Position numbers and translations under genes: made by a program. This document shows positions 4,882 through 35,084 of a DNA stretch of 64,000 bases, piece after piece; position 1 is the stretch's first letter; every line of letters starts with the position of its first letter. Location of the stretch: assembly GCF_004214835.1 (NCBI RefSeq), contig NZ_PIQJ01000003.1, forward strand, positions 124,001 through 188,000, written 5' to 3'. The notes under the pieces are model-generated. The model had not been told where the DNA came from. It did not search any database and worked only from the letters and a program-made list of their open reading frames with translations. The DNA comes from Pseudidiomarina tainanensis (lineage in GTDB: Bacteria > Pseudomonadota > Gammaproteobacteria > Enterobacterales > Alteromonadaceae).

Positions 4882-5289
4882 ATGAAACAACATTTTGCAA
4901 ATTTAGTGGACGAAGAAGAAGCGCAAATTGATATGACGCCCATGCTGGACGTTGTTTTTATCATGCTTATCTTCTTCATTGTGACCGCCTCGTTTGTTAA
5001 AGAGTCAGGCATTGATGTGAATCGTCCAGAGGCGGCGACGGCGGTGCAAAAAGACCGCGCCAATATCTTAGTGGCAATCAGTGATTCGGGCGAAATCTGG
5101 ATCAATAAACGACAAGTCGATGCGCGCGCGGTACAGGCGAACATTGAACGTTTGTATGCCGAGAACCCTCAAGGTTCGGTGGTGATTCAAGCCGATAAAA
5201 AAGCCACGACGGAAACGTTGATTAAAGTCATGGATGCCGCGCGCGCAGCCGGTGTCTTCGATGTCTCGATTGCAACGCAAGAAGACTAG
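4882..5289 (+). CDS. exbD: ExbD2-type biopolymer transport protein
   Basis: 135 residues. A short cytoplasmic N-terminus carries the conserved DMTPMLDVVFIMLIFFIVTA segment. Asp23 in the single transmembrane helix is the expected proton-carrying residue of the ExbD/TolR family. The C-terminal periplasmic domain (about 60-130) ends with the usual AARAAGVFDVSIAT strand. It pairs with ExbB to couple proton flow to TonB movement. It is followed by tonB after 2 bp. Confidence 0.94.
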   Translation: MKQHFANLVDEEEAQIDMTPMLDVVFIMLIFFIVTASFVKESGIDVNRPEAATAVQKDRANILVAISDSGEIWINKRQVDARAVQANIERLYAENPQGSVVIQADKKATTETLIKVMDAARAAGVFDVSIATQED

Positions 5290-5291
5290 TT

Positions 5292-5900: not shown

Positions 5901-5911
5901 GAGACAAACTT

Positions 5912-7183
5912 ATGCGTTATTTACTCATTGTTGTTGCAGTCGTGGCGGTGGTTTTCAACTCCTCGGCTTTGGCTGAAGACCGGAAAAAGACGCCAGCTCT
6001 GCGTGAGCAAGTTTACAGTCAGTTAGCACGAGCCCAACAGCTAGCCGATGACGGCGATGTGAACGCTGGCTTAGAAGTTCTGCGTAATGTTGAGGGCAAG
6101 CTCAGCAGCATGAACAGCTACGAGCGCGCGATGCTCTGGAATTTCTATGGCTACATGTATTACGGCCAGGACAATATTGCAAAAGCTATTGAGTACTTTG
6201 CCAAAGTGGTTGAGGAAGAAGCCATTCCGCAAGCGCTTGAGCAAAATACATTGTTTAGTTTGGCTCAATTAGCACTGGGGCAGGGTGAGTTTGAGCAAAC
6301 CATTGCATTCCTAGCCAAGTGGGAACGCATTACTCCGGCTGAGCAACATCAAAAGGCTTGGGTGTTAAAAGCACAAGCACTGTATCAGCAAGGGGACTAT
6401 AAGTCGGCTTTAGCACCCATTACGAAAGCTATTGAGTTAGTGGAATCAAAAGGCCAAGTGCCTGAAGAAAATTGGCTGGTGTTACAGCGTGCAGTGTACT
6501 TTGAGCTAGGCGATACCAAAAGCGTTGCTGCCGTGCTTGAAGACATGGTGCGTTACTACAACAAACCTGAGTATTGGGTGCAGTTGGCTGGTATTTATGG
6601 TCAGCTTGGTCAAGAACATAAGCAACTAGCGATGTTAGAAACGGCTTTTCAGCAAGGCTTTTTAACCAAAGGCCAAGATTTACTGAACTTAGCGCAAACT
6701 TATTTTTTCAATGACGTTCCATTTAAAGCGGGCCAAGTATTAGAGCAAGCGCTGCAACAAGGCGCAGTTGAACGTAATTTGCGTAACTTAAAGTTATTAG
6801 CCCAAGCTTGGGTTGCCGCCCGTGAGACGGATAAAGCCAGTGCGGCATTGTTAGCTGCTGCAAAGCTGAGTGACGATGGTGAACTCGATGCGCAACGCGC
6901 CACGTTATTACTCAATGCGGAGCGTAATCAGGAAGCCATCTCAGCAGCCCGTGCCGCGCTTGATAAAGGTGGTTTGAAGCAACCGGGTGCCATGCATCTC
7001 GTAATTGGTATGGCTGAGCTTAACTTGGAAAACTTTAATGCGGCCTTGCAAGCATTCGCTATTGCGAAGAAATTTGACGATGCACGACAGTCTGCAGGCC
7101 AGTGGGAACGCTACGCTCAAGCAGAACAAGAGCAGCAAAATCGGTTGATGGAACTGCGCGCTGACATGAAAACGTCATCGTAA
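5912..7183 (+). CDS. Periplasmic TPR-repeat protein, last gene of the TonB2 operon
   Basis: 423 residues with a signal peptide (MRYLLIVVAVVAVVFNSSALA) and then helical tetratricopeptide-like repeats along the whole length (for example FYGYMYYGQDNIAKAIEYFA and WVLKAQALYQQGDYKSALAP). A TPR protein is the standard last gene of TonB2/TtpC clusters in vibrios and related bacteria. TPR proteins are scaffolds, so it probably helps assemble or stabilise the TonB2 complex in the periplasm. It starts at ATG 5912 after a TTAGGAGAC ribosome site. The repeat architecture is seen; the scaffold role is inferred. Confidence 0.85.
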   Translation: MRYLLIVVAVVAVVFNSSALAEDRKKTPALREQVYSQLARAQQLADDGDVNAGLEVLRNVEGKLSSMNSYERAMLWNFYGYMYYGQDNIAKAIEYFAKVVEEEAIPQALEQNTLFSLAQLALGQGEFEQTIAFLAKWERITPAEQHQKAWVLKAQALYQQGDYKSALAPITKAIELVESKGQVPEENWLVLQRAVYFELGDTKSVAAVLEDMVRYYNKPEYWVQLAGIYGQLGQEHKQLAMLETAFQQGFLTKGQDLLNLAQTYFFNDVPFKAGQVLEQALQQGAVERNLRNLKLLAQAWVAARETDKASAALLAAAKLSDDGELDAQRATLLLNAERNQEAISAARAALDKGGLKQPGAMHLVIGMAELNLENFNAALQAFAIAKKFDDARQSAGQWERYAQAEQEQQNRLMELRADMKTSS

Positions 7184-7212: not shown

Positions 7213-7257
7213 TAGTCATGAAACTGTCATATTTCTGACATAACATAGCGCCTAAAT
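7213..7257 (+). promoter_or_regulatory. Pho box and -10 of the porin gene
   Basis: CTGTCAT (7224-7230), spacer ATTT, CTGACAT (7235-7241) form a near-consensus PhoB box. A weaker third half-site TAGTCAT lies 11 bp upstream (7213-7219). A -10-like CTAAAT (7252-7257) begins exactly 10 bp after the box, the same geometry as the other Pho promoters in the window. Confidence 0.75.
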
Positions 7258-19742: not shown

Positions 19743-22700
19743 TTAGAACTTGTAGTTAATGCCTAAGCGCATTTCCCAAAGTGATGGACCAGTTTCACGT
19801 GATTGTGGGCTTGGCTGGTTAAACTGCTCATAAACCAAGTTGTATTCGTCATCAAGAGATGCGTCTACGATTTGCTCGATTTGTGGGAAGCCTGCTTGAT
19901 ACAACACGCCCCAGTCGCTGTTCAACAAGTTACCAACGTTTTCAATAACGAAGAACATGTTCGCTTTGTGACCGTCAGCAAACCCTGGAAGTTCTTGGGT
20001 TACTTTCAGGTCAAATTTGTTCCACCAGCTGCTGTAGAAGCTGTTACGTGGAGCAATACCGCCAGCATATTTATCTAAGCCGCTTTCTTGGATATATGCG
20101 AAGAACGCATCAGTATCAAAGTCTGGGCCAAAGATAACTTTGCTGTCGTCAGCACCAGTTGGTACGTACAACAATTGACGGTTACCAGTGTCACCGAACA
20201 GGTCACGACCGTTTAAGCCGAAGCTATATGGACGACCTTTGTTCGCTTGACCGAACAAGCTGAAACGAGTCTCTAAACCATCGAAGAACTCAACACCATA
20301 GTTAACACGTAAAGTGAAACGATGTGGAATTTCGTAGTTCGCTGGAGCAGACGCATAGTAGTTCATGTCTGAAGTCGCAGTTTGCGAGAAGTTAGAACCA
20401 GCTACTGATGAGCTCATTGACTGAGACTCTTCTGAATCGGTGTATGCATAAGCTACCGACCAGTCAAGACCGAAGTCATAAGAGTGGCTCAACGCAAGTG
20501 ACAAGTTCAACTGGCTACCAGCATCGTCAGCATTGGTTAACTGATAATCACCTTCACGACCATTCGGGTTGGTGTACACAGGACGACCGTCAGATGCCAC
20601 GCCAACTTGCTCGAATGCTAAGTCGATGATTGCTGCAGAGTCTTTACGCTTGGTGTAAAGAATGTCACCCATCAAGACCATTTGGTTTTCAAAGGTGTAA
20701 GTTGCACCTAATGCGTATTTCCACTCGCTTGGAATTTCGAAGTTCGGGTCAAACGAGTTCACTGGGCTGTTGCCGCTAGCGTTAGCAACTGCATCGTACA
20801 TTGATTGTGGTACGTCGTAGAATGGACGGCCGCTACCTGACAAATCAACAGCGTTCAAATCAACGCCACGCTCTTGCAATTGGATTTGCGTAATACCATC
20901 GTTTTGATAGTTGTTTGCAATCCAAACGTTCGGGTTACCACCTGAGTAAAGACCGAAACCACCACGTACTTCTAACTCAAGCGTTGGTTTCCAGTTGAAA
21001 CCGACACGTGGTTGTAATAAACCTTCGCCATCGAAGTTGGTTGAGTTGCTGTAACCATACAAATCGATGAAGTTTTGGTTTTCACGTGGCAAGTCATCGC
21101 TGGTGTACCAGTCGTAACGAAGACCGTAAGTCAACGTCAAGTCTTGCTCGTACATGTAGTATTCGTCTTGTACGTAAAGGGTATTGATTTCGTACTGGAA
21201 CGCACCTGCTGCTTCTTCAGGGTTGTTGGTGCCAGCAGCGCTACCGTAGTAGATACGGTCAACGATACCTTGACGGAACAAGTCGATAGCTGCATTTGGA
21301 TCGTTGCTATCACGTGGAATATAGATGCGGTATTCACCACCACGTGCGTGCTGCACGAATAGGTTGTATACGTCTAACTCTTCACGTTCGAAACCAGCGG
21401 TAATAACGTGGTCACCCATGAAGTAGTTACCAGCTAACTTGATGTAGCGCGTATCGTAGTAAAGCTTGTTCGCTTGACGCGAGTCATCAGCACCTAAGAA
21501 TACAGTTGCGCTATCTTCGATACCGTCGTTGTCGTGGTCAAAACGAGTTTCGATTTGAACTTCACCGAAATCTTTTGGACCCAAAGTAACTTGGCGGTTA
21601 TCAACTTTCTGGTAGCCAGCACGAACTTCAGTTGAGAAGTTATCTGTCCAGTTTGAGTAGAATTCACCAACGTATGAAGTTAACTCAGTACCACGGTCAT
21701 AGTAGTGGTTTGAGAATTCATATGCCCAAGAATCTGACTGACGGATGTTACCGCCGTCGTTCCAGTTGTAAGTGAACGCTGCACGGTGCGCATCGTTGAT
21801 CTGCCAGTCTAATTTAAGCAACAATTTCTCGTCTTCTACTGGTGCAGAAGCGATTGGGTCGCCAACTTCATAGCCGTAAACTTCACGAGCGATTTGTGCA
21901 ATTTCGTCTACCTGTGCTTGCGACACACCATAGATTGGGTTACCTGCAGTTGGGTCATCGCCAGCGCCGTTATCAAACTTCACCGCACCTTCGTATTTTT
22001 CATACGCAGCGAAGAAGAATAATTGGTCTTCTAAGATTGGACCACCAACACTGAAGCCGTAGCGTTTTTCGTTGAAGTCGCCTTGCTCAAGTTTGGTATC
22101 TTCAATTTTGTCACCACGCATATCTTGGTTGGTGTAATCGAAGAAAACGCTTCCGTGGAATTCGTTCTGACCAGACTTGGTTACAGCGTTGATGTTACAT
22201 GCGGTAAAACCACCGTATTTCACATCAAATGGTGCTAATTCAACAGCAACCTGCTCGATGGCATCATAAGCAAACGGCATACGCTCAGTTGGGTAACCAT
22301 TTGAGTTCAAGCCGAAGTTGTCGTTCATACGAACGCCGTCAACAGTCAAGCTGTTGAAACGTGGGTTTGCACCACCACACTGAATACCATCACCGTAGGT
22401 TTCATCGATATAGATACGTGGGTCGATACGCACGATATCTTTGATGTCACGGTTGATAGCTGGCGCTTCTTCAAGGTCACGCAAGCTGAAGTTGCTTGCT
22501 GGGCCGGTGCCGCCATAGTTGTTGTTCAACATTGAGGTGCCAGTTACAGCAATACGCTCAACATTGCTTTCAACCATCAGGTTAACGTTCGCCGTTTCAC
22601 CCAAGGTTAAGTAAACTTCTTGTTCTTTGGTCGCGCCAGTTGTTGGGTCAGTTACCGTGATAACGTATGGACCGCCAACAGCCAAACCACGAGCAGAGAA

Positions 22701-22907
22701 AGTACCTGTCTCGTTGGTTGTTAAAGTACGCGATGCGCCAGTACGCGTATCGGTAATTACTACTTCAGCGTTAGCCAGCGTGCTGCCGGTATTTGAAGTA
22801 ATAACACCACGCAATGCAGAGGCTGTGTCTTGCGCATATGCAGTGGCCGAAAGGCCCATTGCGATAGCAACAGCTGCTGCGATACGTGTTTGTTTGCAGT
22901 TAAACAT
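19743..22907 (-). CDS. Oar-like TonB-dependent outer-membrane receptor, probably phosphate-regulated
   Basis: 1054 residues. The signal peptide MFNCKQTRIAAAVAIAMGLS continues to ATAYA. A carboxypeptidase-regulatory-like beta-sandwich (about 30-115, RGVITSNTGSTLANAEVVIT) is followed by a plug domain (about 125-250, NRDIKDIVRIDPRIYID and FNSLTVDGVRMNDNFG) and a long 22-strand barrel ending MRLGINYKF with a terminal Phe. This is the Oar/TonB-dependent receptor layout. It takes up a large or scarce substrate across the outer membrane using TonB. A Pho box with a -10 lies about 320 bp upstream, and the divergent gene encodes an EEP phosphohydrolase-like lipoprotein. Phosphate or phosphorylated compounds are therefore the likely cargo. 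A start-proximal AAGGGAAA ribosome site supports ATG 22907. Family firm, substrate inferred. Confidence 0.92.
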   Translation of the reverse strand: MFNCKQTRIAAAVAIAMGLSATAYAQDTASALRGVITSNTGSTLANAEVVITDTRTGASRTLTTNETGTFSARGLAVGGPYVITVTDPTTGATKEQEVYLTLGETANVNLMVESNVERIAVTGTSMLNNNYGGTGPASNFSLRDLEEAPAINRDIKDIVRIDPRIYIDETYGDGIQCGGANPRFNSLTVDGVRMNDNFGLNSNGYPTERMPFAYDAIEQVAVELAPFDVKYGGFTACNINAVTKSGQNEFHGSVFFDYTNQDMRGDKIEDTKLEQGDFNEKRYGFSVGGPILEDQLFFFAAYEKYEGAVKFDNGAGDDPTAGNPIYGVSQAQVDEIAQIAREVYGYEVGDPIASAPVEDEKLLLKLDWQINDAHRAAFTYNWNDGGNIRQSDSWAYEFSNHYYDRGTELTSYVGEFYSNWTDNFSTEVRAGYQKVDNRQVTLGPKDFGEVQIETRFDHDNDGIEDSATVFLGADDSRQANKLYYDTRYIKLAGNYFMGDHVITAGFEREELDVYNLFVQHARGGEYRIYIPRDSNDPNAAIDLFRQGIVDRIYYGSAAGTNNPEEAAGAFQYEINTLYVQDEYYMYEQDLTLTYGLRYDWYTSDDLPRENQNFIDLYGYSNSTNFDGEGLLQPRVGFNWKPTLELEVRGGFGLYSGGNPNVWIANNYQNDGITQIQLQERGVDLNAVDLSGSGRPFYDVPQSMYDAVANASGNSPVNSFDPNFEIPSEWKYALGATYTFENQMVLMGDILYTKRKDSAAIIDLAFEQVGVASDGRPVYTNPNGREGDYQLTNADDAGSQLNLSLALSHSYDFGLDWSVAYAYTDSEESQSMSSSVAGSNFSQTATSDMNYYASAPANYEIPHRFTLRVNYGVEFFDGLETRFSLFGQANKGRPYSFGLNGRDLFGDTGNRQLLYVPTGADDSKVIFGPDFDTDAFFAYIQESGLDKYAGGIAPRNSFYSSWWNKFDLKVTQELPGFADGHKANMFFVIENVGNLLNSDWGVLYQAGFPQIEQIVDASLDDEYNLVYEQFNQPSPQSRETGPSLWEMRLGINYKF

Positions 22908-23343
22908 GTTGATGTTTCCCTTGGGTTGTGGTTTTACAGTAAGAAAAAACTTCTGGATTGGTTGGCTCGAACGAAGCGTTCTTTGCCGAATTAGAGTTTG
23001 AGTTGTTTACGACTACAGAATGAATAAATGAGGTAACAGAAGAAATGATGAACAACGAAAAACATACACACCAACGACAGGAATTGCTCCAATATCGTTG
23101 CATGCGATAAGTTGAATTTCGCCACCCGTGACTCATTTTTTCGTCCTATAACCTAGACAATGACGAGATCAGGTAAAAACTGCAATATAATGACCTGAAT
23201 CCACCGATGTGGATTTATAGCATCGTACTGTGTCAAAAATATGACACTATTTTACGCAATATTTTTTACAATTGCATCGTATAAATTGAACCTTTATGCT
23301 TTTTGTCTGTCGTAGCATGCCCGCAAAAGGATAGTTCGTTCCG
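22908..23343. other. 436-bp divergent intergenic region between receptor and EEP genes
   Basis: This stretch holds the shared Pho box (23230-23247), the receptor -10 (23214-23219) and a 7-bp hairpin (AATCCAC / GTGGATT, about 23199-23216). It also holds a receptor leader of roughly 300 nt. Within the leader a 78-codon minus-strand frame (23136 down to 22900) starts 6-7 bases after AGGA and ends 8 bp inside the receptor gene. No RNA gene or known riboswitch was recognised. Confidence 0.6.
23214..23247 (-). promoter_or_regulatory. Pho box (two-way) between Oar-like receptor and EEP lipoprotein
   Basis: On the minus strand GTGTCAT, spacer ATTT, TTGACAC occupy 23247 to 23230, and a -10 TATAAA begins exactly 10 bp later (23219-23214), driving the receptor. 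The element is nearly palindromic (TGTCA at 23231 and TGACA at 23242, 11 bp apart, on the plus strand), so PhoB could also act toward the EEP gene. In that direction a -10-like CAATAT (23257-23262) is about 10 bp away. Confidence 0.7.
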
Positions 23344-24540
23344 ATGAAATTCCGTACAGCCCTTATTTTATCTTTCTCTGCGCTTTATTTAGCAGGATGC
23401 GATATGCCCCCAGAAAAAATTTCAGAGCCCGCTTCACTGCGCGTTGCCACGTTTAACGTGAGCATGGATGCCAGTAATTATTTATCGAATGACCAAGTGC
23501 AAACCCAAGGCGCCACCGCGCTTACTGATGCTTTAGCGCAGCAACACCCACAAATCAAAGCCATTGCTGAAATTATTCAGCACACGCGCCCAGATGTTTT
23601 AGTGTTGAATGAGTTCGATTATGTTGATGCGAGTCAAGGTGTTGATGTTTTTCGCCGCGACTACCTGCAACAAAGTCAGAACGGGGAATCGCCAATTGAT
23701 TACCCATATGTATATTTAGCGCCGGTGAACACCGGTGTGCCAAGCCCATTTGATTTAAGCGGTGATGGCGTGGCCAGTGGCACCGGCAATGATGCCTGGG
23801 GCTTTGGTTGGTATCCGGGCCAATACGGTATGGTGCTGCTATCTAAATATCCAATTCAAACCGACGCAGTGCGCACGTTCCAACTATTCAAGTGGAAAGA
23901 CATGCCGGGTGCGCTAGCACCGTTGCAACCGAATACGTCAGAACCATTTTATAGTGCAGAAGCTTGGCAACAATTTCGACTAAGCTCAAAGTCGCACTGG
24001 GATGTACCGATTGAAGTCAAAGGGCACCAATTGCATCTTTTGGTTAGTCACCCAACGCCACCGGTGTTTGATGGTAAAGAAGATCGTAACGGCCGTCGGA
24101 ACTTCGATGAGATTCGTTTCTGGGCTGACTACATTCAGCCACATCTTAGTGACTATATTTATGATGACAATGGCACGAAAGGTGGGCTAGGCGAACAACA
24201 GGCGTTTGTGATTGCCGGCGATTTAAATGCATCTGTTGAGAGCGAGGACAATGTACCTGGCGCGATTGCACAATTATTAGAGCATCCGTTAGTCAATGCT
24301 GAACAGACGCCAACGAGTGTGGGCGGCGCGCAACATACCCCTGATAATCAGCAAGCCGCAACGCATACCGCTGGTTGGCGCAAACGCGCCGATTACGTGT
24401 TGCCATCGGTATATGGTATCGAATTAATTCAATCAGGTGTGTTCTGGCCTGCCGCTGGTGATCCGAAAGCAGAACTGGTGCAAACGCGAGGTGCTTCTTC
24501 TGATCATCGACTGGTGTGGATAGACATTCAATTAAAATAA
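23344..24540 (+). CDS. Secreted EEP-family (endonuclease/exonuclease/phosphatase) lipoprotein
   Basis: 398 residues. A lipoprotein signal with lipobox LAGC (Cys near residue 19) places it on a membrane facing the periplasm or surface. The body is an EEP/DNase I-like fold: LRVATFNVSMD (strand 1 with Asn), VLVLNEFDYVD (metal-binding Glu), GMVLLSKYPI, LHLLVSHPTPP (His), FVIAGDLNASVE (Asp and Asn) and SSDHRLVWIDI (catalytic Asp-His). All key motifs of the family are present. Such enzymes cleave phosphoesters in DNA, phospholipids, inositol phosphates or other diesters; the substrate here is unknown. It sits divergently from the Oar-like receptor with a shared Pho box and immediately before phoB, which favours phosphate scavenging over DNA repair. 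Confidence 0.85.
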   Translation: MKFRTALILSFSALYLAGCDMPPEKISEPASLRVATFNVSMDASNYLSNDQVQTQGATALTDALAQQHPQIKAIAEIIQHTRPDVLVLNEFDYVDASQGVDVFRRDYLQQSQNGESPIDYPYVYLAPVNTGVPSPFDLSGDGVASGTGNDAWGFGWYPGQYGMVLLSKYPIQTDAVRTFQLFKWKDMPGALAPLQPNTSEPFYSAEAWQQFRLSSKSHWDVPIEVKGHQLHLLVSHPTPPVFDGKEDRNGRRNFDEIRFWADYIQPHLSDYIYDDNGTKGGLGEQQAFVIAGDLNASVESEDNVPGAIAQLLEHPLVNAEQTPTSVGGAQHTPDNQQAATHTAGWRKRADYVLPSVYGIELIQSGVFWPAAGDPKAELVQTRGASSDHRLVWIDIQLK

Positions 24541-24558: not shown

Positions 24559-24592
24559 GTTTCATAAAAGTGTCATAAAGTATCGTGATAAT
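24559..24592 (+). promoter_or_regulatory. Pho box and -10 of phoBR
   Basis: GTTTCAT (24559-24565), AAAA, GTGTCAT (24570-24576), then GATAAT (24587-24592) exactly 10 bp later. This fits the autoregulated phoB promoter of other gammaproteobacteria. Confidence 0.65.
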
Positions 24593-24625: not shown

Positions 24626-25312
24626 ATGTCCAGAAAGATACTGATTGTTGAAGATGAAGCGCCGATTCGCGAAATGCTCAGCTTTGTCATGGAACAGCAC
24701 GGCTATCAAGCAATTGAAGCGGGTGATTATCAAGCCGCTCTAGAAAAGGTTGTTGAGCCTTTTCCAGATATGATTTTACTCGACTGGATGATTCCAGGTG
24801 GCTCTGGTATTCAGTTAGCGAAGAAGCTAAAAGGCGATGATTTTACCCGCGCTATCCCAATTATCATGCTCACCGCCCGTGGTGAAGAAGAAGATAAAGT
24901 GCGTGGCCTAGAAGTGGGCGCCGATGATTACATGACTAAGCCGTTTTCACCGAAAGAACTCATGGCGCGCATGCGTGCGGTGTTTCGTCGGGTTGCCCCA
25001 ACGGCGCTTGATGAACCGCTTGAGATTGAAGGTTTGCGTTTAGATCCGGTATCGCATCGAGTGACAGCATATAACGATCGGCTTGATATGGGACCAACCG
25101 AATTTAAATTACTCCACTTCTTTATGACGCACCCTGATCGGGTGTATAGTCGAGAGCAGTTACTAGATCATGTTTGGGGAACCAACGTATATGTTGAGGA
25201 CCGCACTGTCGATGTTCACATTCGTCGCCTTCGCAAAGCGTTGGAAGCGCATGGACATGATCGCTTGGTACAAACCGTACGCGGTGTCGGTTACCGTTTT
25301 TCAAAAAGCTAA
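24626..25312 (+). CDS. phoB: Phosphate regulon response regulator
   Basis: 228 residues from ATG 24626, preceded by TTAGGTGA; a GTG at 24617 would add three residues. The receiver domain (about 1-120) has the acidic pair near residues 9-10 (IVEDEAP), phospho-acceptor Asp53 in [11 protein letters not shown] and Lys in [10 protein letters not shown]. The OmpR/PhoB winged helix (about 130-228) has [20 protein letters not shown] and [18 protein letters not shown]. It is very similar to E. coli PhoB across its whole length. It activates transcription at Pho boxes under phosphate limitation and is expected to act on the six boxes listed here. Confidence 0.97.
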
Positions 25313-25330: not shown

Positions 25331-26632
25331 ATGGATCGTCGTTATTCCGTCCTCTTTATTTTGAAAGGCCTACTGTGGTTTATTGTCCCAGTAGGCTTTT
25401 TCGGTTGGTTGCTCGGTTACTTCTGGGCAACGTTAGCTCTAGCACTTATTGCGTTGGTTGTTTGGCACTATTATTACCAATACAAATTAGTTGATTGGCT
25501 GTGGCATCGCCGCACAATGTTGCCACCAAGTGCACCGGGTAGCTGGAGTTATATCTACGATGGTATTTATCGCACCCAACGTCGAAGCCAACAACGTCGC
25601 CGTGCATTAGCGCGATTATTGCGACGCTTTCGTGAAGCATCGGAAGCAATTCCAGATGCTGCGATTGTGTTTCGCAAAGACGGCGGCCTCATTTGGTGTA
25701 ACAAATTAGGCCAATTCTATTTTGGCCTGAAGTGGCCGGCCGACACAGGTATTCGTCTTTCCAACTTGATTCGTCACCCAGAATTCATTGCCTATTTGCA
25801 GAAGGGCGATTTTAGCGACGACATTCATCTGCCATCTCCGGTGCGCGAAGATGTAGAACTTGAAGTTCGTATCATGCCTTATAGCGATGACCAATATTTA
25901 TTGATGGCACGTGATGTGACGCAGCTCAAACAACTCGAGCAAATGCGCAAAGACTTCGTGGCCAACGTCTCACATGAACTGAAAACGCCATTAACCGTAT
26001 TGCAAGGTTACCTCGAAATGCTGGATGAGCCGGCTTCGCTGCCACCAGCGATGCTAACTAAGGCGGTTACCGACATGCAGGCGCAAAGCGAACGTATGCG
26101 CAACTTGGTTGATCAGCTCCTATCGTTATCGCGTATGGATGTGCATCGTACCGATATGTTTGAACGTACTGTCAACGTACCGGCCATGTTAGAGGTTATA
26201 AAAAATGATGCCGAACGCTTAAATCAAGACAAGCAACATACGTTGGTGTTTGATATTGCAGATATCCAATTGCACGGTATTGAAGATGAATTGCGTAGCG
26301 TATTTTCAAATTTAGTCACCAACGCGATTCATTACACCCAACCGCATGGTGAAATCAAAGTAACCTGGAAAATGGTCGGGCAAGACGCCGAGTTCGCGGT
26401 GCAAGACAATGGCCCGGGTATTCCTGCCGAACATGTCGGCCGTTTAACTGAACGTTTCTATCGTGTGGACAAAGACCGCAATAGTAAAAAAGGCGGCTCT
26501 GGATTGGGCTTAGCGATAGTCCAACAAGCGCTTGAACATCATCACAGCCGGCTTATTATTGATTCTGTTGTGGGGCGCGGATCCAAGTTCTCTTTCCGTA
26601 TTTCTGAAGAGTTGGTCATTAAGCGTTCGTGA
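25331..26632 (+). CDS. phoR: Phosphate regulon sensor histidine kinase
   Basis: 433 residues. Two closely spaced hydrophobic segments (about 8-45) with almost no periplasmic loop are followed by a charged linker, a PAS domain (about 95-195), a HisKA domain with phospho-acceptor histidine in FVANVSHELKTPLTVLQGYL, and a HATPase_c domain with N box NLVTNAIHYTQ and G boxes VQDNGPGIP and GGSGLGLAIV. This is the canonical PhoR layout (E. coli 431). It phosphorylates PhoB and is held inactive by the Pst transporter with PhoU. Second gene of phoBR. Confidence 0.97.
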   Translation: MDRRYSVLFILKGLLWFIVPVGFFGWLLGYFWATLALALIALVVWHYYYQYKLVDWLWHRRTMLPPSAPGSWSYIYDGIYRTQRRSQQRRRALARLLRRFREASEAIPDAAIVFRKDGGLIWCNKLGQFYFGLKWPADTGIRLSNLIRHPEFIAYLQKGDFSDDIHLPSPVREDVELEVRIMPYSDDQYLLMARDVTQLKQLEQMRKDFVANVSHELKTPLTVLQGYLEMLDEPASLPPAMLTKAVTDMQAQSERMRNLVDQLLSLSRMDVHRTDMFERTVNVPAMLEVIKNDAERLNQDKQHTLVFDIADIQLHGIEDELRSVFSNLVTNAIHYTQPHGEIKVTWKMVGQDAEFAVQDNGPGIPAEHVGRLTERFYRVDKDRNSKKGGSGLGLAIVQQALEHHHSRLIIDSVVGRGSKFSFRISEELVIKRS

Positions 26633-26645: not shown

Positions 26646-26690
26646 TTTTGTCATAAATGTCACAATACTGTCACATTGACTCACTAAACT
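26646..26690 (+). promoter_or_regulatory. Pho box and -10 of pstS
   Basis: Half-sites at 11-bp spacing: TTTTGTC (26646), ATGTCAC (26657) and CTGTCAC (26668-26674). TAAACT (26685-26690) lies exactly 10 bp after the last one. A small leader hairpin GTCGGT-AGAA-ACCGAC follows at about 26714-26729. Confidence 0.75.
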
Positions 26691-26754: not shown

Positions 26755-27726
26755 ATGAAATTCAAATCGGCATTAATTACCGCTGCAGTTGCAGGTTTAA
26801 TTAGTTTTTCTGCAAGCGCACAAAAAGCAACGGACAACCTACCAGAATATGAAAAAGTAAGTGGTCTTTCAGGCAACCTTTCGTCAGTAGGTTCAGACAC
26901 CCTAGCAAACATGATGACCTTCTGGTCAGAAGAGTTTAAGCGTTTATACCCGAACGTTAACATGCAAATCCAAGCGGCTGGTTCTTCAACTGCGCCACCT
27001 GCGTTAACTGAAGGTACGTCAAACTTTGGCCCAATGAGCCGCGCGATGAAAGCGAAAGAAATCGAAGCTTTTGAAAAGCGTCACGGTTACAAGCCAACGC
27101 AAGTTCGCGTAGCGATTGACGCATTAGCCGTATTCGCACACAAAGATAACCCAATTGAAGGTTTAACCATTGCTGAAGTGGACGCAATCTTCTCAAGCAC
27201 GCGTTTGTGTGGTGCAAATGAAGAAGTGCGCCGTTGGGGCGATTTAGGTTTAACGGGTAGCTGGGAAAACCGTGACCTGCAATTATATGGTCGCAACTCA
27301 GTATCAGGCACTTACGGTTACTTTAAAGAAGTCGCGTTGTGTGACGGTGATTTCCGCAATAACGTGAACGAACAGCCAGGTTCAGCGTCAGTGGTACAGT
27401 CGGTATCAACTTCACTGAACGCCATTGGTTACTCAGGCATTGGTTACATGACTTCTGGTGTGAAAACTGTACCTCTAGCAGTTGAAGAAGGCGCCGAGTA
27501 CGTTGACGCAACCACTGAAAACGCGTTAGCGGGTAAATACCCACTGTCACGCTTCTTATACGTTTATGTAAACAAGCATCCAAACAAACCGCTTGACCCA
27601 GCGACTGCAGAATTCTTGAAAATGGCTTTATCTAAAACTGGTCAAGAAATTGTCGATAAAGACGGTTACATTCCACTTCCACGCGTTGTGGTTGAGCAAG
27701 AGCTTGAAAAGCTTGGCTTGAACTAA
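26755..27726 (+). CDS. pstS: Periplasmic phosphate-binding protein of the Pst ABC transporter
   Basis: 323 residues from ATG 26755 (GGAG at 26745-26748, 6-bp spacing; a TTG at 26743 is less likely). The signal peptide [20 protein letters not shown] ends in SA before QKATDNL. The PBP-like phosphate-binding fold shows [40 protein letters not shown] and [14 protein letters not shown], where Ser/Thr/Gly residues typically contact phosphate. It delivers phosphate to PstCAB. The gene is monocistronic with its own Pho promoter and terminator, separated from pstCAB-phoU by asnC/asnA. Confidence 0.94.
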
Positions 27727-27741: not shown

Positions 27742-27768
27742 AAAGCCCGCATATTGCGGGCTTTTTTT
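27742..27768. terminator. Terminator of pstS, shared with convergent asnC
   Basis: AAAGCCCGC-ATATT-GCGGGCTTT stem-loop followed by a T-run. The matching A-run on the left lets it serve asnC on the minus strand, whose stop lies at its edge. Confidence 0.9.
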
Positions 27769-28213
27769 ATACCTGTATCTGCCGCATAATTGGTTGCTGT
27801 AACGAAATTAACGTTTCGGTGGCCTGAATTTCCTCAATGGGTTGAATTTTGTTGATCAGTAAGTTTTGAAGATCATCAATTGAGCGCACCATCACTTTAA
27901 TAAAAATACTATATTGGCCGGTGGTGTAGTGGGCTTCTACGACTTCGGGCAAGGCATTCAACTGCGCTAATGCGCTCGGGTAATCGCCGGCGCGCGCTAA
28001 ATTAATACCGATAAAACAGCACACATCGTAACCAAGTTTGCGTGCATCAACGTGCACGTGGGTACCTGTAATAATTCCCGCTTGGCGTAATTTCTCTACC
28101 CGCACATGAATTGTGGCGGGGCTAACGCTATGTTGCTTGGCAATTTCTGCATAAGAAATCCGCGCGTTGTCTTGCAGCGTGCTAATTATCGCTTTGTCTA
28201 AATTGTCGATCAT
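27767..28213 (-). CDS. asnC: Asparagine-responsive Lrp/AsnC-family regulator AsnC
   Basis: 148 residues. An N-terminal winged helix-turn-helix (about 1-60, ARISYAEIAKQHSVSPATIH) is followed by an RAM effector-binding domain (about 65-145, TTGQYSIFIKVMVRSIDDLQ and IQATETLISLQQPIMRQI). It is close to E. coli AsnC along its length and lies divergently from asnA as in E. coli. AsnC activates asnA when asparagine is scarce. The intergenic region carries a heptamer tandem repeat. Confidence 0.94.
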   Translation of the reverse strand: MIDNLDKAIISTLQDNARISYAEIAKQHSVSPATIHVRVEKLRQAGIITGTHVHVDARKLGYDVCCFIGINLARAGDYPSALAQLNALPEVVEAHYTTGQYSIFIKVMVRSIDDLQNLLINKIQPIEEIQATETLISLQQPIMRQIQV

Positions 28214-28350
28214 CTAATTTCTCGTCTGAATGCTTATATTGTTTTAAATAATATCTAATATTTTTAACTATGAATGCAAATAAATAATCGTGCAACAGTT
28301 TATTGGTTAGATGGTATTGAAGTAAGTATTGATCAGGGTTTAATTTGTTT

Positions 28351-28434
28351 AATAACGAATAACGAATAACGAATAACGAATAACGAATAACGAATAACGA
28401 ATAACGAATAACGAATAACGAATAACGAATAACG
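28351..28434. repeat. Perfect tandem repeat, 12 copies of AATAACG, in the asnC-asnA intergenic region
   Basis: Exactly 84 bp consist of twelve identical AATAACG units. The same heptamer occurs twice at about 39347-39361 next to the 6S RNA gene. It lies about 140 bp upstream of asnC and 75 bp upstream of asnA, where AsnC would be expected to bind. Copy number may vary by slippage. Confidence 0.98.
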
Positions 28435-28442
28435 ACCATTAT

Positions 28443-28493
28443 CGGGTAACCACCATTAACAGCGCTTTGCGCTACCCGGCGTGAAACGCCGGG
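28443..28493 (+). other. Alternative hairpins in the asnA leader
   Basis: CGGGT (28443-28447) can pair with ACCCG (28474-28478), enclosing AGCGC-TTT-GCGCT (28461-28473). CCCGGCG (28475-28481) can instead pair with CGCCGGG (28487-28493). The two folds compete for 28475-28478. This is either a regulatory leader or a small repetitive element. Confidence 0.4.
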
Positions 28494-28508
28494 CGACGAG
28501 GATTTGAC

Positions 28509-29498
28509 ATGTTGAAGCAGCAACAGAGAATTGCCGAGATCAAACAACGGATGACTGAATTGTTATGTACCACTTTGAACCTGACTGAAGTGCAGGCACC
28601 GCTGATGGTGCCGAGCGATGCTGGCGTACAAGATAATTTAAGTGGCGCAGAGCACGGCGTGTCAGTGCATGTGAAAGCTGAACAACGAGATTATGTGATT
28701 GTGCACTCACTCGCGAAATGGAAGCGCAGCGTGTTGGCGCATTACGGATGCCAAGCGGGTGAGGGCGTGATCGCACAAATGAAGGCGATTCGCGCCCACG
28801 AAGAGCAGTTAACTGAGCGGCATTCCGTTCTGGTTGAACAATGGGATTGGGAGCAAGTGATCACATCGAGTGAGCGCTCACTAACAACATTGCAGAGAAC
28901 GGTCAGTGATATCTATCAATCCTTAAGCCAATTAATGCGAGAGGTGGCACCAGAACATACTGATCAACTCGCATCGCAGGTGGTATTCATTCATGCCGAA
29001 CAACTCCGCAAGATGTATCCATTGCTGACCCCGAAAGAACGTGAACGCGAATTCACCAAGTTACATAAAGCCGTATTTATTATTGGTATCGGTGGTGAAC
29101 TGGCTGATGGTTCATTACATGACGCGCGTTCGCCAGATTACGATGACTGGAGTACCTGTGTTTCCTATTCAACACATTCACAACCGTTACCCGGTTTGAA
29201 TGGTGATTTGTTGGTTTGGCATGCGCCCATTGATGACGCATTGGAGTTGTCATCAATGGGCATTCGGGTCAACGCTGAAGCACTCAAACGCCAAACCGAA
29301 CAGCGCAAATGCGAGGCGATATTGCAGCAACCATGGCACCAAGATTTATTAAGCGGACTTCTTCCAGAATGTATTGGTGGCGGTATCGGTCAGTCGCGTG
29401 TTGCCATGTGGGTGTTACAACTTCCTCATATCGCCGCAACACAAGCTCCACAGCTAAATTGGCAGTATTCAACAGGCGAAAAAATTCGTGCTGCATGA
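28509..29498 (+). CDS. asnA: Aspartate--ammonia ligase (asparagine synthetase A)
   Basis: 329 residues, the length of E. coli AsnA (330). It makes asparagine from aspartate, ammonia and ATP and has a class II aminoacyl-tRNA-synthetase-like fold. Visible family segments are VQAPLMVPSDAGVQDNLSG, VHSLAKWKRSVLAHYG, SDDW-type YDDWSTCVSY and the C-terminal GGGIGQSRVAMWVLQLPHI. GAGGA lies 6-7 bp before ATG 28509. It is divergent from its regulator asnC and interrupts the pst cluster. Confidence 0.96.
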   Translation: MLKQQQRIAEIKQRMTELLCTTLNLTEVQAPLMVPSDAGVQDNLSGAEHGVSVHVKAEQRDYVIVHSLAKWKRSVLAHYGCQAGEGVIAQMKAIRAHEEQLTERHSVLVEQWDWEQVITSSERSLTTLQRTVSDIYQSLSQLMREVAPEHTDQLASQVVFIHAEQLRKMYPLLTPKEREREFTKLHKAVFIIGIGGELADGSLHDARSPDYDDWSTCVSYSTHSQPLPGLNGDLLVWHAPIDDALELSSMGIRVNAEALKRQTEQRKCEAILQQPWHQDLLSGLLPECIGGGIGQSRVAMWVLQLPHIAATQAPQLNWQYSTGEKIRAA

Positions 29499-29525
29499 CA
29501 GAAAAATGTCAGGAATATGACAGCA

Positions 29526-29559
29526 CTGTAACAATACTGTCATAGAAAGGGTCTATACT
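29526..29559 (+). promoter_or_regulatory. Pho box and -10 of pstCAB-phoU
   Basis: CTGTAAC (29526-29532), AATA, CTGTCAT (29537-29543), and TATACT (29554-29559) exactly 10 bp later. A further partial half-site ATATGAC precedes at 29515. Confidence 0.78.
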
Positions 29560-29609: not shown

Positions 29610-31853
29610 ATGGCGGCATCACAACGTGCAGAGTTGGGAGCCAGTAATGTGCGATTAATCAAAGACAAAGCTGCTCGCTGGGGGGTAACTCTTGGCGGCG
29701 GTTTAGTGTTAATGGCACTGCTACTGATATTCTTTTACTTGTTATATGTGGTTGAACCTATTTTCCGTGGTGTTGAAGTTGAACACCAGCAATCGTTTGC
29801 CGTGCCAGGGCAAGGTCAGACCGTTGCCATGGGTATGGAAGAGCAGTCTGAAATTGGCTATCGCTTTGCCGATAACGGTGAACTGAGCTTCTTTGCACTC
29901 AAGCAAAAGCCGGGCACCGATTGGCAACCTGGCCAAGTTTTACTGACCGAACAAGTTGCCGACGAGCCGACCGCATTTGCAGCTACTCAGCCGCAAAACA
30001 AGCGTTACGCTTATGCAGTGGCCAACGGTCAAGCGCGCGTTATTGAGCCAAAGTTTCGGTCGCAATTCACTAATGGTCGCCGCTTAACCACGCCAGTGGT
30101 TGGTTTCGCCAACGATGGTGATTTGGTTCAAGTTGATCCGCAACAACGCACCTTGAAACAGTTAGCCTATGAATATGATGGCGAATCACAACTGTTTGCA
30201 GCGGTAACAGCTGATGACAAAGTCATCGTCAATTTCCTACAAGCTAGCCGCAGCTTTCTCACTGGAACCGTTGAACTGCAATCAAAGTTTGCTGAACTGC
30301 CGATAACTGGAGCGGTTGATAACGTCAAAGTCACGCCTGACTTGTCGCAAGTGTTTGTGCGTCAAGGCAACCGTTTCTATGTGTTTGGTATTTCCCGCAC
30401 AGGTAACGTCAGCGAGCGTCAAATATTAACCATTGACCGTCGCCGCTACGGCGATATCACCAGCATGCAGCTTTTGGCAGGGGCCAGCTCCGTGCTCTTT
30501 GGCCATGCCAACGGGCGTGTCACGCAATGGTTCGAAGTTGCTGGCGCCAATGGCCGCCAATATGAATACATTCGTGAGTTTCAGGCTGGCACTTCAGCAG
30601 TTACCGACATCATCGCTGAGTATTACCGTCGTACTTTTTATACCGTATCGGCCAACGGCGAAGTTGGCATTTTTCATACCACGTCTGAGGCTAATTTATA
30701 TCGCGAAAATATCGATGGCATCAAAGCCGACCGCGTAGTGATTGACCCGCGCGCCAATACGTTATTGATGCAAAGCGGCGATGAGTTACATAGCTTTAAT
30801 CTTGAGAATGAACATCCAGAGGTAACCTGGAGTGGCATTTGGCAAGAAGTTTGGTACGAAGGCTACCCAGAGCCACAATACGTTTGGCAGTCAACGTCGG
30901 GTTCAGATGATTTTGAACCGAAGTTTAGCCTTGTGCCAATTTCATTCGGTACCATCAAAGCTGCTGCTTACGCGATGCTATTTGCGGTACCGATAGGTTT
31001 AGCCGCAGCGGTTTACACAGCTTACTTTATGTCGCCAAGCGTGCGCAAAGTGGTGAAGCCAACTGTTGAAATTATGGAAGCTTTGCCAACGGTTATTTTG
31101 GGCTTCTTGGCTGGCTTGTGGTTGGCTCCGCTTATTGAACAATATTTACCCGGTATCGTCGCGACGATCATCCTGATACCGCTGGCGATAATTGCCTTTG
31201 CTGCCATCAGTACAGTCTTGCCAAAAACTTGGCGTAACCGTTTTACCGATGGCCGCGCAGCACTGATCTTACTGCCAATTGTTGCCTTTGTTGGTTGGTT
31301 ATCATTTGAGTTGTCACCATGGGTTGAACAAGCCTTATTTGACGGCAACGTGCGTCAATATATAACGAATGAACTGGGTATTACTTTCGACCAACGTAAT
31401 TCATTAGTCGTTGGTATTGCGATGGGGTTTGCCGTTATTCCGACCATTTTCTCGATTGCCGAAGATGCGGTGTTCAGCGTACCGAAGCACTTATCGAACG
31501 GTTCATTAGCATTGGGTGCGACCACCTGGCAAACACTGACCAAAGTTGTTCTATTGACTGCGAGTCCGGGTATTTTCTCGGCAGTCATGATGGGCTTAGG
31601 CCGTGCGGTAGGTGAGACCATGATCGTACTGATGGCAACCGGTAACACACCGATTATGGATTGGAATATTTTCGAAGGCATGCGCACATTGTCGGCCAAT
31701 ATCGCCGTTGAAATGCCAGAATCAGAGGTCGGTAGCTCGCATTATCGCATCTTGTTCTTAGCGGCCTTTGTATTGTTCATTTTTACTTTCGCGTTTAATA
31801 CCGTCGCTGAGCTTGTGCGTCAGCGTCTACGCGAAAAATATAGCTCGATGTAA
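29610..31853 (+). CDS. pstC: Phosphate ABC transporter permease PstC, long form
   Basis: 747 residues, more than twice E. coli PstC (319). After a transmembrane anchor (about 32-55) comes a periplasmic domain of some 370 residues with beta-propeller-like repeats (for example FANDGDLVQVDPQQRTLKQL). Then follows the permease domain (about 440-740) with the ABC coupling segment [20 protein letters not shown] and GLGRAVGETMIVLMATGN. It forms the inner-membrane phosphate channel with PstA. Long forms of this type occur in Shewanella, Vibrio and Alteromonas relatives. The role of the added domain is unknown. Confidence 0.93.
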   Translation: MAASQRAELGASNVRLIKDKAARWGVTLGGGLVLMALLLIFFYLLYVVEPIFRGVEVEHQQSFAVPGQGQTVAMGMEEQSEIGYRFADNGELSFFALKQKPGTDWQPGQVLLTEQVADEPTAFAATQPQNKRYAYAVANGQARVIEPKFRSQFTNGRRLTTPVVGFANDGDLVQVDPQQRTLKQLAYEYDGESQLFAAVTADDKVIVNFLQASRSFLTGTVELQSKFAELPITGAVDNVKVTPDLSQVFVRQGNRFYVFGISRTGNVSERQILTIDRRRYGDITSMQLLAGASSVLFGHANGRVTQWFEVAGANGRQYEYIREFQAGTSAVTDIIAEYYRRTFYTVSANGEVGIFHTTSEANLYRENIDGIKADRVVIDPRANTLLMQSGDELHSFNLENEHPEVTWSGIWQEVWYEGYPEPQYVWQSTSGSDDFEPKFSLVPISFGTIKAAAYAMLFAVPIGLAAAVYTAYFMSPSVRKVVKPTVEIMEALPTVILGFLAGLWLAPLIEQYLPGIVATIILIPLAIIAFAAISTVLPKTWRNRFTDGRAALILLPIVAFVGWLSFELSPWVEQALFDGNVRQYITNELGITFDQRNSLVVGIAMGFAVIPTIFSIAEDAVFSVPKHLSNGSLALGATTWQTLTKVVLLTASPGIFSAVMMGLGRAVGETMIVLMATGNTPIMDWNIFEGMRTLSANIAVEMPESEVGSSHYRILFLAAFVLFIFTFAFNTVAELVRQRLREKYSSM

Positions 31854-31867
31854 GCGTGAGGATGTCC

Positions 31868-33523
31868 ATGAATAAATGGTTTAAATCAGGAAAACCTTAT
31901 ATTTGGCTTACTGCGGGCGCGGTAAGTGTCAGCTTAATCGCTGTGCTTGGCTTATTGGCACTGATAGCGTGGCGGGGCTTGTCATTCTTTTGGCCGGCAG
32001 CCATTCATGAAGTTGAAGTGCAGGCGAACGATGGCTCAACTCGTGTGATCATTGGCGAAGTTTATGACCGCGAAGAAGTGCCGATTTCACGACTACAAGA
32101 ATCGGGCGTTACCCTTGAAGGCTTTGAGGGCGAGATGCTTGAGCGTAAGTTGTTTAAAGTGGGTAACCGCGAGTTTGTGCCACTCGATTTTATGTGGGTG
32201 ATGCAACCGCAGATTATTCGCGACGAAACACCACAAGACTTAGCCGTTTTAGAACGCTCAAAAGACGGCAACTTTTATGGTTACGTGGTGGATGTGCTCG
32301 AAAATGGCGAGTCAGTGGCGAACTCTGAAAATCTACGCGAAGTATTGTTTGAACGTATCGAGCGCGCAGTTGAGTTCAACGAAAAGGCCAGCGACCTGCA
32401 GCAAGGGCCAATCGGTGCGATTAACTATGAGCTCAACCAATTACGGCTAGAAGCGCGAGCACTGGACCTTGAAGGTCAGTTGACGGAAGCTGAGCAACAA
32501 CGTTTGGCAGCCGAAGAACAGGCGTTGAACGAACAGTATAAAGTGCTCGAAAAAGAGCTGTTTGCATATCGTGAAGCGGCCAGTCGTGACAGCGTGGTGA
32601 TGCGTGACATGCGCGGCGTGGATGTGACGATTCCAATGTATCGCGTGCTTGACGCAACGTTCCCGAATGATATGGGCGTACTGAGCAAAGTCGGTCACTT
32701 CTTTGTGCAAATCGGCAAGTTTGTGTCGGAAGATCCGCGTGAAGCAAACACGGAAGGCGGTGTATTCCCAGCGATTTTCGGTACTGTCTTCATGGTACTG
32801 CTCATGTCGGTTATCGTGACGCCATTTGGTGTTATCGCTGCGGTTTACTTGCACGAGTACGCCGGTAAAAATGCTATCACGAGGCTGATTCGTATCGCGG
32901 TGATTAACCTCGCCGGCGTACCGTCGATTGTTTATGGTGTGTTTGGTTTAGGTTTCTTCGTATACATGGTGGGTGGCACACTCGACCAAATCTTTTACCC
33001 AGAAGCATTGCCAAGCCCAACCTTTGGTACGCCTGGGGTGATGTGGTCAGCGATTACGTTGGCAATTCTGACATTGCCGGTGGTCATTGTATCTACCGAA
33101 GAGGGCTTGTCGCGCATACCAAGTACATTGCGCGAAGGTAGCTTGGCACTCGGTGCCACGAAAGCTGAAACCTTATGGCGCATTATTTTGCCGATGGCAT
33201 CGCCGGCTATTATGACTGGATTGATCTTGGCCGTAGCGCGCGCCGCCGGTGAGGTTGCACCATTGATGCTGGTGGGTGTGGTGAAATCTGCACCGATGTT
33301 GCCGGTAGACGGTAACTTCCCGTACTTCCATTTAGATCGCAAATTCATGCACTTGGGCTTCCACATTTATGATGTCGGTTTCCAAAGCCCGAACGTTGAG
33401 GCCGCGCGTCCATTGGTATACGCCACCTCATTCTTGCTGGTTACGGTGATTGTCGGGTTAAACCTGACCGCTATTGGCGTGCGTAACCATTTACGTGAAA
33501 AATATCGCTCTCTTGAACATTAA
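31868..33523 (+). CDS. pstA: Phosphate ABC transporter permease PstA, long form
   Basis: About 551 residues from ATG 31868 (GAGG 6 bp upstream); ATG 31862 and GTG 31856 are in-frame alternatives. TM1 (about 12-38) is followed by a periplasmic insertion of about 250 residues, with a predicted coiled coil rich in Glu, Gln and Leu at about 175-245. The permease core has [34 protein letters not shown] and the coupling helix [20 protein letters not shown]. It is the partner of PstC. The usual PstA is about 300 residues, so both permeases carry matching periplasmic additions. Confidence 0.93.
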
Positions 33524-33534
33524 GGTTAAACATT

Positions 33535-34353
33535 ATGATTTCGGTTACTCCGAACACTAGCAATGTCGAATCATTAGATTTAGCAAACTTAACGCCAGAG
33601 CAAACCGCGTTAGAAATTCGCAACCTCAACTTACATTATGGGGAAGCGCAAGCGCTGTACGATATCTCGATGAACATTCCGAAGAATCGTGTCACCGCAT
33701 TTATCGGTCCATCGGGCTGCGGTAAATCAACCTTGTTGCGTTGTATCAACCGCATGAACGACCTCGTAGAAATTTGCCGTGTCAAAGGCGAAATCCTGTT
33801 GCATGACAAGAACATCTACGACAAAAACGTGGATGTAGCTGAGTTGCGTCGCCGCGTTGGTATGGTGTTTCAGCGTCCAAACCCATTCCCGAAATCGATT
33901 TATGAGAACGTGGTATACGGCATGCGTCTGCAAGGTGTGAACGATCGCCGCACCTTGGATGAAGTGGTTGAGCGTTCATTGAAAGGCGCCGCGCTGTGGG
34001 ATGAAGTGAAAGACCGTTTAAACGAATCGGCTTTCGGATTATCCGGTGGTCAGCAGCAGCGCTTGGTAATTGCGCGTGCGATTGCCATTGAGCCAGAAGT
34101 GTTGCTGTTAGATGAACCAACATCAGCATTGGACCCAATCTCAACCTTGACGATTGAAGAGCTGATTACTGAACTGAAAGAAAAATATACCGTGGTTATC
34201 GTCACGCACAACATGCAACAAGCCGCACGTGTGTCTGATCAAACGGCATTTATGTATATGGGTAAATTGATTGAATATGCAGACACCAACACGCTGTTCA
34301 CGACCCCAGCCCAAAAACAAACCGAAGATTACATTACCGGACGTTACGGTTAA
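33535..34353 (+). CDS. pstB: Phosphate ABC transporter ATPase
   Basis: 272 residues. Walker [11 protein letters not shown]-loop [15 protein letters not shown], signature LSGGQQQR, Walker [13 protein letters not shown], and the H-loop histidine in [16 protein letters not shown]. The FQRPNPFP stretch is diagnostic for PstB. It hydrolyses ATP to drive PstCA. It is 11 bp after pstA and 14 bp before phoU. Confidence 0.98.
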
Positions 34354-34367
34354 TAGGAGCGCAGGCA

Positions 34368-35084
34368 ATGGATAAACTCAATATGAGCCGGCATATTTCC
34401 GGAAAATTTAACGAAGAGCTTGAAGCAGTCCGTAACCAAGTATTGAATATGGGCGGCTTGGTTGAGCAGCAATTGCGTGACTCGCTGCATGCCATTGAAA
34501 AGTCAGACCACGAACTGGCTGAGCAAATTTTGCAGCGTGACTACAAAATTAATGCGTTGGAAGTTCAAATTGATGAAGCGTGTGTGCAAATCATTGCAAA
34601 ACGTCAGCCAGCGGCAAGTGACTTGCGCTTAATCATCGCGATTTTCAAGACGATTTCTGATCTTGAGCGTATCGGCGATGAGGCAGAACGTATTGCGCGG
34701 GTTGCACTCGAGAGCTTCAACAACGACCAACAGCAATTCTTGGTCAGCCTAGAAAATCTCGGCCAGCAAGTATTAGCAATGTTGCATGGTGTATTGGATG
34801 CATTTGCACGTATGGATTTGGACGCGGCGTTTGAAGTGCACCAAATGGATGCGCAAGCCGACCGTCAATACGAGGCGCTGACACGTCAGCTGATGACCTA
34901 CATGATGGAAGATCCGCGCGGGATTCCAAAAGTCATGAATGTATTGTGGTCAGCACGTTCATTGGAACGTATCGGCGACCGTTGTCAGAATATCGCCGAG
35001 TACATTATTTTCTTCGTGAAAGGTAAAGACGTACGACACGTTTCTCCTGAATCGATGGAGCAAACGGTAAAAGGCGCGCGTTAA
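34368..35084 (+). CDS. phoU: Phosphate transport system regulatory protein PhoU
   Basis: 238 residues, all-helical, with two PhoU three-helix repeats. Each carries the acidic metal-binding motif, seen as IFKTISDLERIGDEAERIA and VLWSARSLERIGDRCQNIA. It connects PstB to PhoR and shuts off PhoB activation when phosphate is plentiful. Last gene of pstCAB-phoU. Its end is convergent with serA, 8 bp away. Confidence 0.98.
   Translation: MDKLNMSRHISGKFNEELEAVRNQVLNMGGLVEQQLRDSLHAIEKSDHELAEQILQRDYKINALEVQIDEACVQIIAKRQPAASDLRLIIAIFKTISDLERIGDEAERIARVALESFNNDQQQFLVSLENLGQQVLAMLHGVLDAFARMDLDAAFEVHQMDAQADRQYEALTRQLMTYMMEDPRGIPKVMNVLWSARSLERIGDRCQNIAEYIIFFVKGKDVRHVSPESMEQTVKGAR

Follow-up and report, generated by a model that had tools for sequence, protein, structure and literature searches.

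What is the role of a receptor and a phosphoesterase that diverge from a single putative PhoB site next to phoBR? The question is raised by a stretch of 64,000 nucleotides from Pseudidiomarina tainanensis (contig NZ_PIQJ01000003.1, positions 124,001 to 188,000; the whole stretch is referred to as the window). An Oar-type TonB-dependent receptor of 1054 aa (19743-22907, minus strand) and an EEP-family phosphoesterase of 398 aa, a predicted lipoprotein (23344-24540, plus strand), lie here on either side of a near-palindromic 18-bp box (23230-23247). The original prediction took this box to serve both genes and the pair to scavenge organic phosphate such as DNA, phospholipid head groups or inositol phosphates. 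The analysis described here indicates that the pair is probably the Idiomarina-type version of a PhoB-controlled module of the Alteromonadaceae, which would import nucleic-acid fragments or nucleotides and strip them of phosphate. Dissolved DNA is a large marine phosphorus pool and, to our knowledge, how Gram-negative bacteria take nucleic acids across the outer membrane as food is poorly known.

The Pho box and the promoter facing the receptor

The box, GTGTCAAAAATATGACAC, is a perfect 6+6 inverted repeat of the form TGTCA-N6-TGACA and can be read on both strands. The EEP gene precedes phoB in 13 Pseudidiomarina-like loci, and in 12 of them the divergent receptor and the box are both present. 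At the remaining locus, L018, from a metagenome-assembled genome, restriction-like genes (labelled from reading the sequence; positions 1-4260) replace the receptor and no box is seen. A PhoB matrix was built from 22 training boxes (21 distinct) in the phoB, pstS and pstC regions of the same relatives. The window box scored 12.3 and ranked 12 among about 128,000 window positions. Of the 18 top matrix sites, 17 (three of them training sites) lay within or bordered on six promoter regions, those of the TonB operon, the porin, receptor-EEP, phoB, pstS and pstC; the lone exception is at 54219. When the 436-bp intergenic region was shuffled (Markov, n=2000), the score of the box was reached in 2.55% of the copies and a TGTCA palindrome of the same form arose in 1 of 2000. 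Exact TGTCAN6TGACA is limited to three sites in the host genome of 2.37 Mb, all within the window: before the porin, between receptor and EEP, and before pstC. Conservation, rank and rarity of the palindrome agree with the proposal that the element is a PhoB box, here a predicted site.

The symmetry of the box may be explained by its half-sites. Two TGTCA-like half-sites spaced 11 bp apart (TGTCA/TGACA) make up the receptor-side box, the two forms alternate in 11-bp steps upstream of pstC and of the TonB operon, and in the relative L025 a direct repeat, TGTCA-N6-TGTCA, occupies the position of the palindrome. A half-site here apparently accepts either TGTCA or TGACA, each being the reverse complement of the other, and so the core can be symmetric. 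The upstream region of E. coli ugpB, which has a Pho box, holds TGTCATCTTTCTGACA, with the same TGTCA-N6-TGACA form as the window box; unlike the latter, which faces a receptor, it precedes the gene of a glycerol-3-phosphate ABC transporter.

The two sides of the box differ. Toward the receptor, on the minus strand, the box is followed after exactly 10 bp by TATAAA (23219-23214), as had been described. The same 10-bp distance to a -10-like hexamer is seen at the phoB, pstS, pstC, porin, TonB operon and alkaline phosphatase promoters of the host, the porin promoter being the least clear of the six. The -10 hexamer was scored independently of the matrix training, and its spacing was compared in the window and 12 Pseudidiomarina relatives. 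On the receptor side the mean match at offset 10 was 4.08/6, the peak among offsets 5-16; on the EEP side of the same 13 sequences it was 2.15/6 and no peak was present there. Exactly 10 bp from the box on the EEP side stands AATATT (23258-23263, plus strand), one base off the CAATAT named earlier. It matches at 4/6 in the window and scores 1-3/6 in the 12 relatives carrying the box, and is at best a weak, unconserved -10 candidate. Thus the idea of one bidirectional element holds for the position of the box and for the receptor promoter, and is unsupported for control of EEP, because the EEP side lacks the offset-10 peak. Pho control of the receptor is supported by the conserved box and the 10-bp-spaced -10 element, features of sequence.

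Two blocks downstream of the box toward EEP, ATTTTAnnCA and AATTGCAYCG (23248-23290), are highly conserved across the aligned relatives. A TTGCAYCG..GAACC block, likewise conserved on the EEP side, was considered by eye as an extracytoplasmic-function (ECF) or sigma-70 promoter and was rejected: the ECF spacing is wrong and the -10 is not found in all loci.

The receptor-EEP pair and its neighbours

The gene identities given earlier were borne out. The receptor carries an N-terminal CarboxypepD_reg extension (PF13620, 49.1 bits against a cut-off of 32.3) and a beta-barrel (PF25183, 141.8 bits) that is also present in the predicted structure; the plug (PF07715) scored 21.5 bits, under its cut-off of 23.9. 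The whole predicted model resembles TonB receptors, with FusA as top match. In the EEP protein both the Exo_endo_phos domain (PF03372) and the fold are present, and its fold matches include sphingomyelinase. Residues N38, E90, H236, D293, N295, D387 and H388 are invariant across 40 aligned rows; we take this Asn, Glu, His, Asp, Asn, Asp-His set to be the catalytic residues. Neither protein matched a PDB chain at E<=0.01 in a sequence search. The EEP lipobox reads LAGC-D, and GCD is kept in all 10 Pseudidiomarina rows of the alignment. Asp at position +2 of lipoproteins is an inner-membrane retention signal in enterobacteria, and the earlier description of EEP as secreted is doubtful for this reason. 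The EEP protein of L018 has Arg at the position of the lipobox Cys.

Is the pair kept in relatives? Among 79 Alteromonadaceae genomes, on which the family counts are based, EEP is found in 58. The receptor (E<=1e-60) is found in 70, as a single match in 55 of these; seven of the nine genomes without it also lack EEP. From 59 EEP matches, 55 loci were fetched with their flanks, leaving the host genome itself, G070, G065 and G019, for which coordinates place the receptor adjacent to EEP in the host and G070 and not in G065 and G019. The receptor stands next to EEP in 45 of the 55 loci; the two genes adjoin directly in 21 of these and are separated by a single gene in 24. The arrangement takes three forms: a TetR gene lies between the two in 24 loci, the genes diverge directly in seven and are co-directional in 14. 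Adjacency by chance was dismissed, since most genomes with the receptor have a single match to it. The pair is therefore conserved in relatives.

The receptor itself has changed at this promoter: compared with P. marina, EEP is 90% identical and the receptor only 36%. Both kinds of receptor occur together in several species, either in tandem or separated by one gene. In a tree of 79 receptors there were two large clades, one of 36 members (support 1.0) and one of 38 (support 0.79), each including divergent, co-directional and EEP-less loci. This turnover would be most simply explained by differential loss from an ancient tandem pair.

The neighbours of the pair point to the substrate. Neighbour clusters were named by Pfam/NCBIfam on one representative each and counted by BLAST against the representatives, the lowest identity being at least 52% for TetR, DeoA, Cdd, Udk, NupC and PhoA. 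Thymidine phosphorylase (deoA) and cytidine deaminase (cdd) are both found in 17 of the 24 TetR loci. Loci of the other kinds carry uridine kinase (udk) in 16 cases and NupC in 10, with either of them in 17; nucleoside genes are near EEP in 34 of the 55 loci overall. All 24 TetR loci carry a PhoA-type alkaline phosphatase, and L171 has one as a fusion, which makes 25 of 55. The fusion (L171:6199-8694) is a single frame of 831 aa with an EEP domain (56-407) followed by an alkaline phosphatase domain (423-828). A gene of the NupC cluster lies near this fusion, and a RutR-type operator with one mismatch upstream of it.

The receptor keeps similar company where EEP is elsewhere or missing. Twenty such receptor loci were fetched, 14 from 13 EEP-less genomes and six from genomes with EEP at another place; the receptors of G033, G065, G073 and G075 and extra copies in some other genomes lie outside this set. 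In 13 of the 20, udk and/or nupC are found, adjacent to the receptor in seven and one or two genes off in six; one more locus has deoA one gene away. An S1/P1 nuclease, present in 69 of the 79 genomes and mostly single copy, lies directly beside the receptor in three further loci of the 20 (L244, L240, L247), and coordinates give a fourth such pair in G028:C41. The last three of the 20 loci have neither these nucleoside genes nor the nuclease. These findings suggest that the nucleic-acid company of the receptor is independent of EEP and that its nuclease partner can change. The host S1/P1 nuclease region has no good Pho site (best 5.5), and the same holds for two 5'-nucleotidase regions of the host genome (best 5.5 and 7.6).

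Two further observations concern these neighbourhoods. Genes for a PhnD-like binding protein and for an unnamed product of roughly 320 aa (clusters c10/c11, e.g. L175:858-1817 and L182:2256-3146) form a recurrent pair close to the receptor, seen at 8 of 55 EEP loci and also at several of the EEP-separate receptor loci. At G000:C1:1525744-1526398 (L225, L226, L228) nupC lies beside udk in two overlapping frames of 332 and 138 aa, either a broken gene or an assembly error; a weak Pho-like site (10.6) is located about 60 bp upstream of this udk.

Outside the Alteromonadaceae the immediate neighbours gave no clear signal: in a tally of 57 of the 80 listed neighbour proteins, with loci of giant fused proteins set aside, even the commonest families turned up in three members each.

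The intervening TetR protein is closest to RutR yet under the RutR cut-off (166 of 368 bits, one representative). A RutR-type operator with at most three mismatches was found in 20 of the 24 TetR loci, 6 of the 14 co-directional, none of the seven directly divergent and one of the 10 receptor-less loci; those of the 20 TetR loci were matched by at most 2 of 50 shuffles. A Pho signal is seen at many of the same loci. Against shuffles, a Pho site at p<=0.05 is present in 16 of the 24 TetR loci, in 6 of the 7 with directly divergent genes and in 7 of the 14 co-directional ones, and in none of the 10 loci that lack the receptor. In 19 of the 23 scorable TetR loci a hexamer with at least 5/6 match to TATAAT stands exactly 10 bp from the Pho-type box of the receptor; at each of the remaining offsets between 5 and 16 such a hexamer is seen in 0-1 of the 23. 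The co-directional loci showed no sharp box-to-hexamer spacing. At the window pair no sense open frame between receptor and EEP fits a TetR gene, and the best match to the RutR-type operator has six mismatches there and five or six in 13 relatives. Judged from these sequences, the RutR-like regulatory layer is absent from the host's Idiomarina-type lineage.

A proposed nucleic-acid route and its alternatives

On the proposed route, phosphate shortage would lead PhoB to act on the 23230-23247 box and activate the receptor; the promoter architecture is observed and PhoB would be expected to bind there. The receptor, probably energised by a TonB/ExbBD system that has a Pho box of its own, may then take up oligonucleotides or nucleotides, as its neighbours suggest. 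The EEP protein, a predicted membrane-anchored phosphodiesterase with the fold and the invariant residues described above, would cleave the imported fragments. A PhoA-type phosphatase with a Pho-type promoter could release phosphate to Pst, while nucleosides would enter their own transport and salvage pathways. Elsewhere, in many genera, the pair is also tied to the RutR-like regulator. The organic-phosphate role put forward earlier is supported by the presence of EEP beside, or fused to, phosphomonoesterases. With deoA, cdd, udk, nupC and the S1/P1 nuclease as neighbours, its substrate can be narrowed, at moderate confidence, to nucleic acids or nucleotides. A broader proposal, that a clade of Oar-type receptors actively imports nucleic-acid fragments or nucleotides with energy from a dedicated phosphate-starvation TonB system, and with EEP and S1/P1 as interchangeable nuclease partners, is offered tentatively.

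Could the module instead be a general one, with EEP as a broad phosphodiesterase, the receptor admitting various phosphoesters and nucleosides only one product among several? Cyanobacterial EEP domains (L047, L058, L073, L055) head very large proteins with phytase-like, phytase, GDPD or PhoD domains, EEP is fused to PhoX in Teredinibacter and has PhoX genes beside it in L203 and L206, and the sphingomyelinase among the fold matches would fit as well. Within the family, however, the recurrent neighbours are nucleoside genes, in two arrangements, and the receptor keeps them even without EEP. No phytase or lipid-phosphate enzyme was present among the scanned neighbour clusters (c2-c5 and c8-c11; c12 onward unscanned). 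We consider the general role unlikely.

The nucleoside genes themselves raise another explanation, that the receptor imports nucleosides or bases for carbon and nitrogen, EEP and the phosphatase supplying them from outside or in the periplasm and Pho control being secondary. The RutR-like TetR protein with its operators, the proximity of the receptor to udk/nupC without EEP, and the missing Pho signal in half of the co-directional loci are in its favour. Exactly spaced Pho promoters nevertheless face the receptor in the 19 of 23 TetR loci and in Pseudidiomarina, and the window pair adjoins phoBR and has no RutR-type site, which leaves this explanation a slim chance. That the palindrome is the operator of another dimeric regulator is scarcely credible: its identical 6-base arms would suit one, but the exact PhoB-type spacing, the direct-repeat form at the same place in L025, the alternating 11-bp arrays before pstC and the TonB operon, and the like form before E. 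coli ugpB all speak for PhoB.

Known systems resemble the proposed module in part. In Flavobacterium Pus, the accessible text describes outer-membrane TonB-type transporters induced by phosphate depletion and co-located with phosphomonoesterases and phosphodiesterases (PMC8115612). Those are Bacteroidetes SusC-SusD pairs, whereas here the bacterium is a Gammaproteobacterium, the receptor is Oar-type and nucleoside genes accompany it in relatives. From the tadA-like gene (19.2 kb) to phoB no further sense frame of at least 120 aa was found that could encode a SusD-like partner; no separate scan with a SusD model was made. The Caulobacter PhoB regulon, in the portion of the paper at hand, includes TonB-dependent receptors, exonucleases and other phosphate-releasing enzymes (PMC11208175); it is a list of regulon genes, as distinct from an adjacent, conserved receptor-phosphoesterase pair in nucleoside context. 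Another Caulobacter receptor, near a phosphate-starvation lipoprotein, was not used, as the available text reports that it is not induced by phosphate limitation (PMC2996285). Oar-like TonB-dependent receptors of Xanthomonas share the N-terminal extension between signal peptide and plug, and the accessible part of that paper gives them no role in phosphate starvation or with nucleic acids (PMC1790865). Loci of sediment DNA degraders have nuclease genes beside phosphate-stripping and product-import genes; the terms 'TonB' and 'outer membrane' are absent from the text as available (PMC8289736). Among the titles and abstracts seen in the open-licence literature none describes an Oar-EEP nucleic-acid module, which is weak evidence of novelty.

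The recurrence of the receptor-phosphoesterase pair in a marine family, together with control elements of both phosphate and nucleobase type, supplies named candidate genes and suggests a job for Oar-type receptors, this EEP family and the DUF3450 TonB operon. If the broader proposal is true, nucleic acids would have a TonB receptor class of their own, and marine bacteria a 'selfish' route to DNA as phosphorus.

Other Pho-type promoters and genes of the window

The TonB operon (2172-7183) lies on the plus strand behind an array of PhoB half-sites (2080-2119), whose best box, CAGTCACCAAGCTGTCAC (2102-2119), is followed after 10 bp by TATCTT. It opens with a DUF3450 protein (2172-2945) and continues with two ExbB-like proteins, a long MotA/TolQ/ExbB family form (2948-4315) and an ExbB-type proton channel (4318-4869), an ExbD-like protein assigned from position and sequence rather than by a hidden Markov model (HMM) scan (4882-5289), TonB (PF03544; 5292-5900) and, as last gene, a TPR protein (5912-7183). 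The operon with its Pho-type promoter is kept in relatives: among the 30 copies of the first gene in the family that match best, 29 have an upstream site of at least 12.3; second DUF3450 copies, checked in five genomes, had no upstream box in any. Overlapping Pho boxes (7213-7241, plus strand) precede a Gram-negative porin (PF13609; 7310-8257, plus strand), and the host alkaline phosphatase, on another contig, has a box followed after 10 bp by TAAACT. Judged by their promoters, the TonB/ExbBD operon, the porin and the alkaline phosphatase appear to share one response with the receptor, to which the operon may be a partner.

Downstream of EEP, all on the plus strand, the order is phoB, phoR, pstS, an asnC/asnA-like pair and pstCAB-phoU. 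The Pho box of phoB (24559-24576) stands 10 bp ahead of GATAAT and is followed by phoB (24629-25312, TIGR02154) and phoR (25331-26632, TIGR02966); pstS (26758-27726, TIGR02136) has its box at 26657-26674. An array of Pho boxes (29495-29543, core box 29526-29543) precedes pstC, pstA, pstB and phoU (29610-35084), named from their translations without an HMM scan. In the window and in several relatives the asnC/asnA-like pair (27767-29498) lies between pstS and pstCAB; it was not found at this place in L019, L024-L027 and L046. Between asnC and asnA, at about 28300-28500, there is a short tandem repeat, one frame of which reads as repeated VIRYSLF.

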